64,000 nt of DNA, from positions 186,001 to 250,000 of the forward strand of contig NZ_VKCZ01000007.1 in assembly GCF_009299835.1 (NCBI RefSeq). The letters are read 5' to 3'. Below the pieces are notes generated by a model, which was not told the origin of the DNA, searched no databases, and worked only from the letters and a program-made list of their open reading frames with translations. Shown here piece by piece: positions 1,520-63,764 of this stretch. A program made the position numbers and the translations under genes. The stretch's first letter is position 1, and the number at the start of each line of letters is the position of its first letter. The DNA is from Microlunatus speluncae. Lineage in GTDB: Bacteria > Actinomycetota > Actinomycetes > Propionibacteriales > Propionibacteriaceae.

Positions 1520-1983
1520 ATGAGCAACCCGAGCTACACCGACGGCTTCACCGTGACCGAGACCCCGGACCGCGTCTTCGCCGGCGTGACCGACGTCCGG
1601 ACTGGTGGACCGAGACCATCGAGGGCGATTCCGGCCGGGAGGGCGACACCTTCGTCTTCCGGGATGAGGGCATCCGGTTCGCCCGGTTCCGGCTCACCGA
1701 GGTCATTCCGCAGCAGCGCGTCGTCTGGACCGTGGAGGACTCCGAACTCGTCTTCGTCGAAGATCGCGACGAATGGACCGGCACCCGGGTGATCTTCGAC
1801 ATCACCGCCGACGGCGACGCGACCACCCTGCACTTCACCCACGAGGGTCTGCTGCCGGCCGTCGAGTGTTACGACGCCTGCTCGGACGGCTGGAGCCGCT
1901 GCATGCGCAGTCTGGAGCAGCTGATCGTGACCGGCCGGAGCCAGACCGGGCCCAAGCGCGGCCTCGACGCCATCGTTCCCTGA
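1520..1983 (+). pseudogene. SRPBCC/AHSA1-like protein, frameshifted
   Basis: The ATG at 1520 follows a good ribosome binding site (GAGAAGGG) and encodes an AHSA1/START-like beginning (GFTVTETPDRVFAGVTDVR). The family then expects a WW-containing segment. DWWTETIEGDS is present, but one frame over, and that frame runs on to the stop at 1983 through VVWTVEDSELVF, LHFTHEGL and GWSRCMRSLEQLI. One extra G in the GG at 1599-1600 would restore a protein of about 154 residues. This is either a real single-base deletion or a sequencing error. Such small hydrophobic-ligand domains are often of unknown substrate. The gene ends Val-Pro-stop in CGTTCCCTGAG, the start of the dispersed repeat described elsewhere. 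Confidence 0.7.
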
Positions 1984-2043
1984 GTCGCGGCGGGTCTGCC
2001 GGAATGCGCCCGGCTGTCGGCGCCAACCACCACACTGGCAGTC

Positions 2044-2646
2044 ATGACCAGGTCCGAGCAGGCGCTGACGATCGTCCCGGCCAACGAGGCGAGCTGGGAC
2101 GATCTGCAGGCGATCTTCGGCACCCGCGGCCCCGGCTCCCGTTGCTACTGCCAGCGTTTCAAGCTGGCCCACCGGGAGTCGTTCGGATCGATCCCGGCGG
2201 AGGACCGGGCGCGCCGGCTGCGGGAGCAGACCGACTGCGGCCATCCTGACGCCGAGGCGACCAGTGGGCTCGTCGCCTATCTGGGTGGCGAGCCGGCCGG
2301 TTGGTGCGCGGTCGAGCCGCGGCCGCTCTACGTCGGACTGGTCCGCGTCTTCCGGGTGCCCTGGGAGGGACGGACCGAGGACAAGACCGACGAAACCGTC
2401 TGGGCCGTGACCTGCTTCCTGGTCCGGGCCGGCTTCCGCAAGCGCGGCGTCGGCCGGGCGTTGGCGGCCGCCGCGGTCGACTTCGCCCGCGACCGCGGCG
2501 CCCGGGCCCTCGAGGGTTACCCGATCATCGGCAACGTGATGTCCGACGAACTGCACGTCGGCACCGAACGCATGTACGCCGACGCCGGCTTCACCGTCGT
2601 CACCCGCCCCGGTGTCCGCCGCCTGGTGATGCGCATCGACTTCTGA
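2044..2646 (+). CDS. GNAT family N-acetyltransferase
   Basis: A 200-residue GNAT-fold acetyltransferase. The acetyl-CoA binding region is visible as AVTCFLVRAGFRKRGVGRAL (about residues 122-141), containing the R-x-x-G-x-G/A loop. The later strand and helix include ERMYADAGFTVV, typical of the C-terminal part of the fold. The N-terminus has an unusual CYCQRFK segment seen in a subgroup of actinobacterial GNATs. The substrate cannot be told. The next gene, on the opposite strand, ends at the adjacent base with no gap. Confidence 0.85.
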   Translation: MTRSEQALTIVPANEASWDDLQAIFGTRGPGSRCYCQRFKLAHRESFGSIPAEDRARRLREQTDCGHPDAEATSGLVAYLGGEPAGWCAVEPRPLYVGLVRVFRVPWEGRTEDKTDETVWAVTCFLVRAGFRKRGVGRALAAAAVDFARDRGARALEGYPIIGNVMSDELHVGTERMYADAGFTVVTRPGVRRLVMRIDF

Positions 2647-3189
2647 TCATGAAACCCCGGCGATCGGGTAGCCTTCCGCAGCGCAGCTGCTGATCACGTC
2701 CTCCGCGACCTGATCAATCGGTCGTTCCGCGTCGATCATGATCGCTCCGCGCTGCTCGAGTGCGGCTTCGACCGTGTCCCGCCAGCCGAGCGACCACTCG
2801 GCCGTGTCGCCCTTCTTGCCGAAGACGTTGTTGCGCTCGGGCGCCGTGACCCGGGCTTTGAGGGTCGCGTCCCCGATGCACAGGACCAACAGCAACGCGA
2901 AGCGATCGAGGTGCGCTGTCATGTTGAAGGCCGTGCCGGCCAGCACGGTTGTGTGATCGGCGCTGTCGGCCACCGCGGCGGCCAGGCGGCTATCGATCCA
3001 GTTCCAGTGGTGCGTCGTCAACCAGCCGAGCCCGGGTGCCGGCGGCAGGTCGACTGTCACTCCGGCCTCGTCCTCGAATCGGGCGTAGCCGTAGTCCAGG
3101 TCGATCGACCGGAGATCACGATCGCGCAGCCACTGGGACACGGTCGACTTCCCGGCACCCGGACCCCCGGCCAGCAGGATGGCAGCCAT
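2647..3189 (-). CDS. P-loop AAA/kinase-like protein
   Basis: A 180-residue P-loop protein. The start is taken at the ATG giving MAAILLAGGPGAGKSTVSQW, which puts the Walker A motif (GGPGAGKST) at residues 8-16 as in small nucleoside or adenylate-type kinases. An acidic DLDYG segment and an RVTAPERNN lid-like stretch follow. No clear substrate-specific motif was recognised, so the function stays general (ATP-dependent phosphotransfer or nucleotide binding). An upstream in-frame extension of 20 residues looks non-coding. The gene meets the acetyltransferase tail to tail. Confidence 0.75.
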   Translation of the reverse strand: MAAILLAGGPGAGKSTVSQWLRDRDLRSIDLDYGYARFEDEAGVTVDLPPAPGLGWLTTHHWNWIDSRLAAAVADSADHTTVLAGTAFNMTAHLDRFALLLVLCIGDATLKARVTAPERNNVFGKKGDTAEWSLGWRDTVEAALEQRGAIMIDAERPIDQVAEDVISSCAAEGYPIAGVS

Positions 3190-61403: not shown

Positions 61404-62387
61404 ATGCTTCAGCCGCTTGGGATCACCGCCGACGCCGAGGCGGTCTATGTCGTCCTGGCGACCTCCGAAGCCGCCGCGGTCGAGGAACTGGCCGACCGGG
61501 CCGGCGCTGCCAAGGAGAGCACCGAGCAGTCGCTGTCCGAGTTGCGTGCCCTCGGGCTCGCCGCCGAGGTGACGCCGGGACTGTGGAAGGCCCTGCCGCT
61601 GCTCGACGTGGTCGGCGGGCTGCGGGCTCAGCGGCTGTCGGAGGTCGAGACGGCGATCATCGCCGCGGAATCCCTGGCCAGCCACCTGTTGGCCGCCTCG
61701 GAGTCGACCACGGACGCGATCAAGGTGCTGGTCGGCACCGACGCGATCGTCGCGGCCCACCGGGAGATCTTCGACTCCGCGAAGCGCGAGGCCTGCGCCT
61801 TCGACAAGCCGCCCTACGTCAAGGCCCGACCCGGCGCGACGCCGGAGAGCCTGCTCCGCGAGGCGCCGGAGTGGCGGGCCCTGGATCGCGGCGTCGGCAT
61901 CCGCGCGGTCTACCATCCCGGCTTCGACTCCGAACGACTGTCCGAGCTGTCGCTGTTCGCCAAGAAGGGCGAGCAGTCCCGGACCGCGCCGGTGCCGATG
62001 AAGCTGGTCCTGGTCGATGGCCAGGTGGCGCTGATCCCGTCGATGCGTTCGTACGGGCCGGGCCATGAACTGCGGGTGTCGGTCACCCGGCATCCGGCGA
62101 TCATCGAGATGCTGCAGTGGTTGTTCGAGGCGGTGTGGGAATCGTCGGTGCCGATCATCACCCACTACGGCCGCACGGATCCGCGGCGACAGATGTTGAT
62201 CTCGCTGCTGATGACCGGTTCGACGGACAACGCGATCGCCGGTCAGTTGGGAGTCACGGTGCGCTCGGTCCGGCGCTGGATCTCCGACTTGATGGATGAG
62301 CTCGGGGTGACCACCCGGCTGCAGTTGGGCGCGGCTCTGGTCCGAGCCGACACTCTCAATCAGATCCCCGACCGGCAACGCGGCTGA
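61404..62387 (+). CDS. LuxR-type regulator with TrmB-like N-terminal domain
   Basis: A 327-residue regulator. Residues 1-75 form a TrmB-like winged helix (EAVYVVLATSEAAAVEELAD, AAKESTEQSLSELRALGLAA). The middle (about 105-240) resembles the PLD-like sensor of this family (VLVGTDAIVAAHREIFDSAK, YHPGFDSERLSEL). The C-terminus is a LuxR helix-turn-helix (LLMTGSTDNAIAGQLGVTVR, VRRWISDLMDELGVTTR). It has no receiver domain, so it likely binds a ligand. GAGGGGAG precedes the ATG. It converges on the secreted-peptide gene with a shared terminator. Confidence 0.88.
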   Translation: MLQPLGITADAEAVYVVLATSEAAAVEELADRAGAAKESTEQSLSELRALGLAAEVTPGLWKALPLLDVVGGLRAQRLSEVETAIIAAESLASHLLAASESTTDAIKVLVGTDAIVAAHREIFDSAKREACAFDKPPYVKARPGATPESLLREAPEWRALDRGVGIRAVYHPGFDSERLSELSLFAKKGEQSRTAPVPMKLVLVDGQVALIPSMRSYGPGHELRVSVTRHPAIIEMLQWLFEAVWESSVPIITHYGRTDPRRQMLISLLMTGSTDNAIAGQLGVTVRSVRRWISDLMDELGVTTRLQLGAALVRADTLNQIPDRQRG

Positions 62388-62453
62388 GACCCTCGGGTCG
62401 GGGTCCTTCCCAACCGTCCCCGGGACCGTTACGATCTCCCCAGAAAGAAAGCC

Positions 62454-62488
62454 ACGCCCGCGGTCCTCTGGGAAAGGACCGCGGGCGT
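62454..62488. terminator. Hairpin terminator between the LuxR-type and peptide genes
   Basis: A perfect 14-base stem, ACGCCCGCGGTCCT at 62454-62467 with its complement at 62475-62488, and a seven-base loop. On the minus strand it is followed by GGCTTTCTTTCTGG, U-rich for this genome, so it can end the peptide transcript. It lies 66 bases after the regulator stop. Confidence 0.8.
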
Positions 62489-62564
62489 CGCCCAGGGGGA
62501 GGAGATCCTCATCAGCCTCGGGGGATGGCTGTTGAGGACATCAGCGACAGATTCGGTGCTCACA

Positions 62565-62633
62565 TCACCGGTCTGCCATTCCGGGAACGTCAGGTAATCC
62601 CGGCTTCCTTGCGGAAGTCTCTTTTGTTGTCAT
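62565..62633 (-). CDS. Possible 22-residue ORF downstream of the peptide gene
   Basis: ATG at 62633 begins a 22-codon ORF (MTTKETSARKPGLPDV, then PGMADR) preceded by GGTGAGGG. Between the peptide stop and this ORF lie a 7-base hairpin (CCTCACC with GGTGAGG), and inside the ORF a CTTCC-GCAA-GGAAG hairpin with a GNRA-type loop. It may be only a structured 3' leader. Nothing resembles a known peptide. Confidence 0.25.
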   Translation of the reverse strand: MTTKETSARKPGLPDVPGMADR

Positions 62634-62692
62634 CGCCGAGCCCTCACCCTGACGGTGAGGTAGGAGACTCGGCGACTCCTTGCGTCCAGCCC

Positions 62693-62896
62693 CTAGAGGC
62701 TGTTGACACCACTCTCGAACTGAAGGCTGTTGACTTCGGATCCCCATCCGTTCTCGGCCTTCAAACTGTTCACTGCACTTGCGGCTGTGGCTGCCGCAGC
62801 AAGCGTGCCGATTGCCAGCACGGCCGCGGCTACTACTCGAACCACGATGCGCTTGGTCGAACGCGTCCGACCTGCACTAACTCCCTTGTGAGACAT
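62693..62896 (-). CDS. Small secreted peptide with three VNSL blocks
   Basis: A 67-residue precursor. A basic beginning (RTRSTKRIVVR) leads to a hydrophobic stretch (VVAAAVLAIGTLAAAATAAS) ending in ASA at residues 39-41, a clear signal-peptidase I site. The mature part would be 26 residues, V42 to L67, with VNSL at 42-45, 55-58 and 64-67 and a single Trp at 51. The three blocks use different codons (GTGAACAGTTTG, GTCAACAGCCTT, GTCAACAGCCTC). AGGAAGGA lies about nine bases before the ATG. The small palindrome ATAAG-AAA-CTTAT sits at 62965. No family recognised. Confidence 0.75.
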   Translation of the reverse strand: MSHKGVSAGRTRSTKRIVVRVVAAAVLAIGTLAAAATAASAVNSLKAENGWGSEVNSLQFESGVNSL

Positions 62897-62977: not shown

Positions 62978-63139
62978 TCGACCTGGGAAGCGAAGTCATC
63001 ATTTTCGGGTGTCCGGTACTGGAAATGTCCTAAAGAGGACTCCTCCGGTGCCGTCACCAGGTCCGCCTCGACCGCCCCCAAAACCGCTCTGACCAGCATG
63101 TTCTCCGATCCGGTCAGCGGTCAAGGGTGAGTTATTCGG

Positions 63140-63175: not shown

Positions 63176-63298
63176 ATGGGTATGTGCGTGATGGTGCTCC
63201 GTGGCCGGGGCAGGGCGGTTCGACCGGGCATCCAGGTCCGGGCCGGGGACGCGAGCCGCTGCGCGGCCGCTCTGGGGTTGGCATCGACTTGCGCCTGA
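63176..63298 (+). CDS. Possible leaderless upstream ORF overlapping the erm-type gene
   Basis: A 40-codon ORF (MGMCVMVLRGRGRAVRPG, ending ASTCA) whose ATG falls at the predicted transcription start. It runs through and past the GTG start of the methyltransferase in another frame. Leader peptides control some erm genes by ribosome stalling, so a regulatory role is possible. It may also be chance. Confidence 0.35.
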   Translation: MGMCVMVLRGRGRAVRPGIQVRAGDASRCAAALGLASTCA

Positions 63299-63764
63299 TT
63301 GGGCCGGTCGACTGGTCGATCGAGCCGAGGTACGGCCGGGTCAGCTGGTCGTCGATCTGGGTGCGGGGACCGGCGCGCTGACGGCGCCGCTGCTGGATGC
63401 CGGCGCCGAGGTGATCGCCGTGGAGCTCCACCCGGGTCGCGCCGAGCGGCTCCGCCGGCGATTCGGCACCGATCGATTGCGGGTGCTGGAGCTCGACGCC
63501 CGGGAGCTGTGGTTGCCGGGGCGTCCCTTCCGGGTGGTGAGCAATCCCCCGTACGGGATCACGGCGTCACTGGTGTCCCTGATCACCCAGCGGTCCAGCC
63601 GGCTGATCCGGGCCGACCTGCTGCTCCGGCGCGGCGTCGTCAACCGGTATCTGACCCGGCCGCCGCGGCGCTATCTGGCCGCGCGCGGGATGACCATGCC
63701 GCGGCACGCGTTCACGCCGCCGCCACCGGTCGACTCCGCCGTCCTCACCCTGCGTCGGGGCTGA
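63201..63764 (+). CDS. erm: Erm/KsgA-like rRNA adenine N-methyltransferase
   Basis: A 187-residue Rossmann methyltransferase. SAM motif I is VVDLGAGTGALTAPLLDAGA, followed by VIAVELHPGRAERLRRRFG, and the catalytic NPPY is present (VVSNPPYGITASL). The end is the family pattern MPRHAFTPPPPVDSAVLTLR. It would methylate 23S rRNA adenine and could give macrolide-type resistance, as known for Erm. It is shorter than most Erm proteins because the C-terminal helical domain is reduced. The start is uncertain; the Trp-His-Arg-Leu segment (GWHRLAPDWAG) is conserved. Confidence 0.82.
   Translation: MAGAGRFDRASRSGPGTRAAARPLWGWHRLAPDWAGRLVDRAEVRPGQLVVDLGAGTGALTAPLLDAGAEVIAVELHPGRAERLRRRFGTDRLRVLELDARELWLPGRPFRVVSNPPYGITASLVSLITQRSSRLIRADLLLRRGVVNRYLTRPPRRYLAARGMTMPRHAFTPPPPVDSAVLTLRRG

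Follow-up and report, generated by a model that had tools for sequence, protein, structure and literature searches.

The question raised by this locus of the soil actinobacterium Microlunatus speluncae is what a tiny, apparently secreted peptide does beside a regulator with the look of a sensor. In the 64,000-nucleotide stretch that was analyzed (the window), a gene for a TrmB/LuxR-type regulator converges on a gene for a peptide that carries three copies of the tetrapeptide VNSL. An earlier note on this DNA suggested a possible peptide signaling module, a suggestion now supported by conserved pairing of the two genes, codon selection, a common operator-like element, and comparable pairings in other genera. 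Our preferred reading, to which we assign a probability of about 0.65, is that the pair is a peptide signaling unit with the regulator as an intracellular sensor acting on the promoter of the peptide gene.

A regulator of modeled TrmB-PLD-LuxR architecture faces a repeat peptide gene

Both open reading frames described in the earlier note are present (Table 1), and the export signal, ribosome site, 26-residue mature part, and three VNSL blocks that it listed can all be read in the sequence. The precursor has a basic and then hydrophobic N-terminus with an AxA site before residue 42, and the gene has a GGAAGG ribosome site; export signals here and below were judged from hydropathy and the AxA site rather than with SignalP. 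The predicted mature part, VNSLKAENGWGSEVNSLQFESGVNSL, opens and closes with VNSL and has a third copy midway. The blocks do differ in their codons as claimed, the three copies having three DNA spellings (GTG AAC AGT TTG, GTC AAC AGC CTT, and GTC AAC AGC CTC). The precursor lies ~309 bp from the regulator. A terminator shared by the two genes had been proposed, and the intergenic space does hold a 16-pair hairpin; its T-rich tail is on the peptide strand, and a separate, weaker hairpin at 62602-62619 is on the regulator strand, so that the proposal is right only in part.

Table 1. Features of the regulator and peptide genes, in window coordinates
Feature	Position	Strand	Basis
TrmB-PLD-LuxR regulator, proposed peptide receptor, 327 aa	61404..62387	+	ORF; genus-wide match; modeled fold
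TrmB-type winged HTH, N-terminal, residues 1-60	61404..61583	+	TrmBL2/TrmB structural matches; Pfam TrmB below cut-off
Phospholipase-D-like domain, residues 104-250, proposed ligand-binding part, no HxK	61713..62153	+	Structural matches; sequence
LuxR-type HTH, C-terminal, residues 258-315	62175..62348	+	Pfam GerE below cut-off; most conserved part in genus
Terminator-like hairpin between the convergent genes	62454..62488	-	Hairpin scan
Peptide precursor gene, 67 aa	62693..62896	-	ORF; ribosome site; export-signal-like N-terminus; orthologous slot filled in 19/20 genomes
VNSL copy 3, C-terminal	62696..62707	-	Codons
VNSL copy 2	62723..62734	-	Codons
VNSL copy 1	62762..62773	-	Codons
Predicted export signal, residues 1-41, cleavage ASA/VNSL	62774..62896	-	Hydropathy and AxA site
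Ribosome-binding site GGAAGGAA	62904..62911	-	Sequence
Operator-like double palindrome upstream of peptide gene, one half degenerate here	63010..63041	-	Dyad and matrix searches

The regulator fold was modeled with AlphaFold2 (pLDDT 79, pTM 0.49, 21 sequences), and the modeled architecture is a TrmB-type HTH, a phospholipase-D-like (PLD-like) domain, and a LuxR HTH. A structure search matched the model to TrmBL2 (5bpd) at E 2.5e-13 and to TrmB and PLD-like folds, and 2f5t, the TrmB sugar-binding domain, aligned with Z 14.3 over 130 residues. The combination that marks the TrmB family, an N-terminal TrmB HTH and a PLD-like effector domain, is seen in structure, with the Pfam TrmB match below cut-off. 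The modeled PLD-like fold occupies the region that had been called ligand-sensor-like. The phospholipase D catalytic motif HxKxxxxD is absent, there being no HxK anywhere in the 327 residues when read directly. Pfam up to E 1 gave no TPR family, no receiver domain, as the earlier note had said, and no autoinducer-binding domain; the protein thus fits neither the LuxR/NarL two-component regulators nor the LuxR AHL receptors. With Pfam and NCBIfam together, the regulator had only sub-threshold matches and the peptide nothing of use. Within the genus, the LuxR HTH is the best conserved part (mean pairwise identity 0.79), followed by the PLD-like part (0.58) and the first HTH (0.43).

The pair is conserved across Microlunatus and the motif differs between species

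The survey covered 198 genomes of the family, including 20 of the genus Microlunatus. The peptide sequence as a query gave one clear relative, in G008 (E 8.4e-12), a weaker match in G042 (1.5e-4), and otherwise signal-peptide-like matches. The regulator was taken as the search anchor because peptide-only matches were mostly of this weak, signal-peptide-like kind. It has a match at E <= 1e-40 in 20/20 Microlunatus genomes. Across the family, E < 1e-100 is reached in 19 of them and in two genomes of Auraticoccus (genus g6); the twentieth Microlunatus regulator (G015), truncated at a contig end, reaches 7.7e-70. Reading of the DNA located a peptide gene downstream of the regulator in 19 of the 20 genomes, convergent in every case, with about 82-451 bp between the regulator match and the peptide ORF in the 18 pairs measured. 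G009 keeps the regulator, and no peptide gene was found downstream. Conserved pairing in related genomes, one of two computable points among those on which the earlier note had staked its proposal, is therefore found. A hydropathy-based export signal is present in 15 of the 19 precursors and absent in three (G001, G015, and G002), the remaining one (G004) being cut by a contig end. Several Microlunatus precursors exceed 100 aa.

Each genome has essentially a single motif type, and the type differs between species (VNSL, VNSI, VNGV, GRGY, AHNL, LNGA, and others) in 1 to about 28 copies (Table 2). By position the motif is [GVAIL]-[NRH]-[GSTN]-[LVYIFSA]. Three precursors (G005, G006, and G011) do not end in their motif. 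The frame change within the INGS array of the G011 precursor (L042 721-1518) may reflect assembly error, decay, or phase variation.

Table 2. Motifs of the Microlunatus precursors
Genome	Motif and copies
G000 (window)	VNSL x3
G008 (Microlunatus parietis DSM 22083)	VNSI x2 and one VNGV
G016	VNG[VI] x7
G013	VNG[VG] x8
G001	GHTL x8
G015	GHSL x8
G007	[AD]HNL x21
G018	GRGI x2
G010	GRGV x2
G004	ANGL-type x8, in fragment cut by contig end
G019	GNSL x12
G012 (M. endophyticus)	VNGL x16
G006	VNGF x20
G002 (M. kandeliicorticis)	ING[VL] x24
G005	L[NT]GA x28, in-phase units
G017 (M. flavus), G003, G014	GRGY, single copy at very C-terminus (three species)
G011	INGS array, frame changes inside array

In the regulator tree, the VNGV, GRGY, GRG[IV], and VNG[LF] pairs or trios form supported clades and VNS[LI] nearly so; these five clades each share a motif type. 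The INGS and LNGA pair is strongly supported despite differing motifs, GRGY and GRG[IV] are not joined, and the deep forks lack resolution. Plain descent would explain the agreement of motif and tree as well as co-evolution.

Purifying selection acts on the motif

Chance recurrence was measured in 20 loci (19 Microlunatus and 1 Auraticoccus, window genome excluded) that together have 1491 ORFs of 35-300 aa. A recurring C-terminal tetramer was found in 28/1491 ORFs compared to 16.4 expected from shuffles, and the 8 ORFs with five or more recurrences were all in the peptide slot.

Ratios of pN/pS calculated on copies picked by their motif are biased by the picking and were discarded. The whole-array codon test covered G005 and G007 only, with copies set by phase. 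The 28 units of G005 gave a pN/pS of 0.04 for the motif and 0.62 for the spacers, and the 20 units of G007 gave 0.05 and 0.80. Among stretches selected for a constant period, the motif value was 0.00 in G012 (spacer 0.55), in G006 (spacer 0.18, hence constrained too), and in the five units of G001, where the spacer has no synonymous change and yields no usable ratio. The GNSL array of G019 has no spacers; its motif value of 0.30 reflects switching between the serine codons AGC and TCG. In both whole arrays the motif is under strong purifying selection and the spacers are under little. The codon patterns thereby bear out the second computable point raised in the earlier note, and the conserved thing is the peptide, not the DNA.

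An operator-like double palindrome precedes the peptide genes

The double palindrome TGTCC-N6-GGACATGTCC-N6-GGACA, more or less degenerate, lies upstream of 18/18 peptide genes, which are those with a readable upstream region (that of G004 is missing). The dyad GTCC-N7-GACA is found in 10/10 representative upstream regions, and the best dyad in shuffles reached 3-4/10. A matrix built on 12 sites gives scores of 31-42 at 6/6 of the other peptide promoters and at most 7.4 in 200,000 random sequences; every one of the 18 upstream regions had been inspected beforehand, and the six promoters held out are related to those behind the matrix. The window copy is the only strong matrix match in the surrounding 19 kb (L113). 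A one-mismatch search of the window for TGTCC-N6-GGACA gave 3 matches against 2.5 in shuffles, which is not above chance, and there is no operator match between gnd and the regulator.

Among the matches listed, eight places in G018 carry exact copies of GTCC-N6-GGACATGTCC, 12 in all. With two mismatches, and again among the matches listed, there is a clear excess over the reversed control in G018 (41 versus 7) and little in G008 (40 versus 35) and G009 (44 versus 35). At one mismatch, 14 family genomes without an ortholog (E 1e-20) gave five matches in 3 genomes, none exact, and four control matches; the one-mismatch operator search in G009, G024, and G102 likewise gave none. We infer that the regulator acts at the palindrome, which could instead belong to another factor.

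Operator sites recur beside similar genes in G018:C1 and G010:C1 (L234-L241, L205, L219, L230, and L233). By protein reading these neighbors include a desaturase-like protein with a small secreted protein, a lipoprotein, and a dehydrogenase-like lipoprotein beside a ROK-like regulator. The recurrence suggests a small conserved regulon.

At 63201-63764 (+) the window encodes a short rRNA methyltransferase resembling Erm(37)/Erm(41); its match (E 4.4e-51) falls below the curated cut-offs. The gene is divergent from the peptide gene with an operator-like element between the two, and an ORF of similar length occupies the same place in G008 (L074 7710-8255).

Proteases and hydrolases neighbor the peptide slot

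A protealysin-like M4 protease gene lies near the slot in 13/20 loci (L055 8035-9384 and 12 further loci), of which 12 have a peptide gene and the other is that of G009; the member scanned has an emfourin inhibitor domain. The M4 gene has its own operator site in G012, G006, G011, and G005, and in G002 a separate emfourin gene has one. No M4 gene was found at the locus in the window genome or in M. parietis. The protease could be a maturation enzyme or a co-regulated effector.

Two operator-like sites precede a TAP-like hydrolase in G009, and in Auraticoccus a weaker one precedes a homologous hydrolase. The Auraticoccus enzyme is a secreted TAP-like hydrolase convergent to the regulator (L072 3029-5002 and L104 5138-7120) with 7 or 10 internal [DE]GQI copies, and the message may there be embedded in the hydrolase itself. 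A peptide-like repeat at L072 is antisense to the hydrolase and was rejected as a peptide gene. G008 also has a TrmB-LuxR paralog (L213, 539-1495), after which come an operator-like site and a further TAP-like hydrolase (1624-3021). No linked exporter or importer was found at the loci; the 39 SBP_bac_5 matches in the window genome would allow import of the peptide.

Homologous regulators outside the genus accompany tryptophan-containing peptides

Genus g5 of the same family has a divergent tiny secreted peptide that ends in GGFQW (two copies, G023) or NGFGW (G144). In genus g15 of the same order, which may be Kribbella, a divergent peptide of 38-48 aa has CW at or near the C-terminus in 21/21 loci of one regulator group (L123-L143), all 21 with GGAACnGACCATATACA between the regulator and peptide genes. 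The window regulator matches this group directly (G036:C1:654024, E 1.2e-20). By eye, 24 of the 30 homolog loci beyond the genus have a candidate peptide, L117 is doubtful, and none was recognized at L116 and L118-L121. Sampling of 296 genomes of the class gave a further set of 30 loci, with a candidate peptide in 11 by eye and none recognized in 19; motifs in this set include DGAGWQ x2, DPGWQ x2, DLPWT x2, NTWD, MIWG, SLWD, and NIWM.

A strict filter found Trp in the last five residues of 25/27 small secreted ORFs near homologous regulators compared to 0/16 in controls (exact test, 5.8e-10), a count in which the 21 loci L123-L143 are close relatives and one of the 25 (the L123 ORF ending KRAW) looks spurious. 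The class set alone gave 6/7 versus 0/16 (6.9e-5). Of the 59 control loci, most come from other genomes, and some are Microlunatus peptide loci. A loose filter was useless, reaching 15/30 class loci but also 9/19 distant-paralog loci.

Five Streptomyces plasmid loci were taken from 112 matching records, and four of them have a peptide: GIGWD x3, DLGWQ x1, DPTWD x2, and DLPWT x2. Those at L245 and L247 escaped the filter and were taken from annotated ORFs, and none was recognized at L244. Similar-looking small proteins (by eye) of about 90-115 aa with no signal lie beside the regulator at L244 1079-1411, L245 1106-1375, and L246 1490-1834 and could be a third component. No peptide was recognized beside the two regulator paralogs of the window genome (L089 and L090). 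The regulator-peptide pairing is thus widespread, though far from universal, among the homologs.

Discussion

Sequence comparison establishes a small precursor with a species-specific motif, a convergent one-component regulator, purifying selection, and an upstream palindrome. In the mechanism that we propose, the precursor would be exported from the cell, and signal peptidase and extracellular proteases would free short peptides, about 4-5 residues long. These would return to the cytoplasm through an oligopeptide permease, and the PLD-like domain of the TrmB-LuxR protein would bind them there. The LuxR HTH at the palindrome would then alter expression of the peptide gene and of a small regulon, by activation or repression.

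That the peptide is instead an output (an antimicrobial, matrix, or surface effector) and the regulator senses another ligand, such as a sugar, is unlikely. TrmB-type PLD-like domains do bind sugars in archaea, 2f5t being such a domain, an operator-like element at the peptide promoter is expected of any regulon member, and the genomes hold further operator sites. Single-copy precursors, however, keep only the four-residue C-terminus GRGY, and a very short, species-specific motif kept in every copy better suits recognition than a bulk effector; Trp-motif peptides also accompany homologous regulators elsewhere. We regard it as quite improbable that the precursor gauges proteolysis, its repeats feeding a secreted or neighboring protease (the protealysin-like M4 enzyme or the TAP-like hydrolase) so that the fragments report protease activity or protein-rich surroundings and not cell density. 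The M4 gene near the slot in 13/20 loci, the operator sites of M4 or emfourin genes in five genomes, and the operator-like sites at the TAP-like hydrolases of Auraticoccus and G009 are what this account would predict, but neither the window genome nor M. parietis shows an M4 gene at the locus, and the protease link could be inherited gene order.

The layout of a leader and then repeated cores would also fit a multi-core RiPP precursor modified by an unlinked enzyme. The leader is Sec-like, the motifs have no common modifiable residue, and no modifying enzyme was recognized among the neighbors examined, which makes this very improbable. Spurious ORFs abound in high-GC DNA, and tandem DNA repeats translated by chance beside a regulator would be an artefact of that kind; with the conserved pairing, codon selection, recurrence test, and dyad and matrix results all counting against it, we give coincidence almost no credence.

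The signaling unit that we favor resembles the RRNPPA systems of Bacillota (Rap-Phr, PlcR-PapR, NprR-NprX, Rgg-SHP, and AimR-AimP) in the small, usually exported propeptide beside a receptor gene, the short signal, the presumed re-import, and the presumed intracellular sensing. PMC10075063 defines RRNPPA systems by a TPR receptor of 250-500 aa, an adjacent small Sec-exported propeptide, and re-import with receptor binding. The regulator is within that size range at 327 aa and the adjoining 67-aa propeptide has an export signal by hydropathy, whereas the sensor part matches TrmB and PLD folds rather than TPR repeats. Because the receptor has no TPR repeats, the Microlunatus pair is not an RRNPPA member and would only work like one. 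It differs further in belonging to Actinomycetota, in the TrmB HTH, PLD-like domain, and LuxR HTH of its receptor, in having up to about 28 motif copies, and in gene order, which is convergent in Microlunatus and divergent in several other groups. Bacillus phage Phr propeptides (Rap3T-Phr3T and Rap105-Phr105) hold several pheromones in one, freed by extracellular proteases, according to the excerpt of PMC11343458 consulted; the copies described there are far fewer and the receptor is unrelated to the TrmB-LuxR regulator. Archaeal TrmB and TrmBL2 (PDB 3qph, 2f5t, and 5bpd) share the N-terminal HTH followed by a PLD-like domain; the present regulator has a C-terminal LuxR HTH in addition, with a peptide gene as its neighbor. 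LuxR AHL receptors share the C-terminal LuxR-type HTH; their autoinducer-binding domain was not found in the present protein, whose neighbor is a peptide gene. Yeast alpha-factor-type precursors are secreted and carry tandem copies of a single short pheromone. The present precursors are bacterial, with a receptor presumed to be intracellular and one-component.

Actinobacterial signals are typically small molecules made by enzymes, according to PMC10075063. PMC4748050 lists gamma-butyrolactones together with cyclic or modified peptides; the phylum is therefore no stranger to peptide signals as such. A literature search that most subscription journals lay outside of gave no account of peptide signaling by TrmB-LuxR proteins, which makes the absence weak evidence. 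What the search did not find described is the receptor family, the regulator-peptide pairing, and short repeats that are unmodified. We put it at even odds that they represent an undescribed peptide quorum-sensing family of Actinomycetes, in which one-component TrmB-PLD-LuxR receptors would have tiny secreted precursors as partners, the signal being a short motif that is either C-terminal or repeated. Its messages would contain Trp in Streptomyces and other groups and follow x-[NRH]-[GSTN]-x in Microlunatus. Receptors would diversify along with their messages, which would form a multicopy array in Microlunatus and be embedded in a secreted hydrolase in Auraticoccus.

If the signaling reading is true, a plain peptide message that is genetically encoded and read by a one-component receptor would give an antibiotic-producing phylum a directly readable, engineerable cell-cell code. 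It would also point to the ligand of some orphan TrmB-LuxR regulators, and the natural variants of the message, more than a dozen of them and each with its receptor, would be at hand for studying the evolution of signal specificity.
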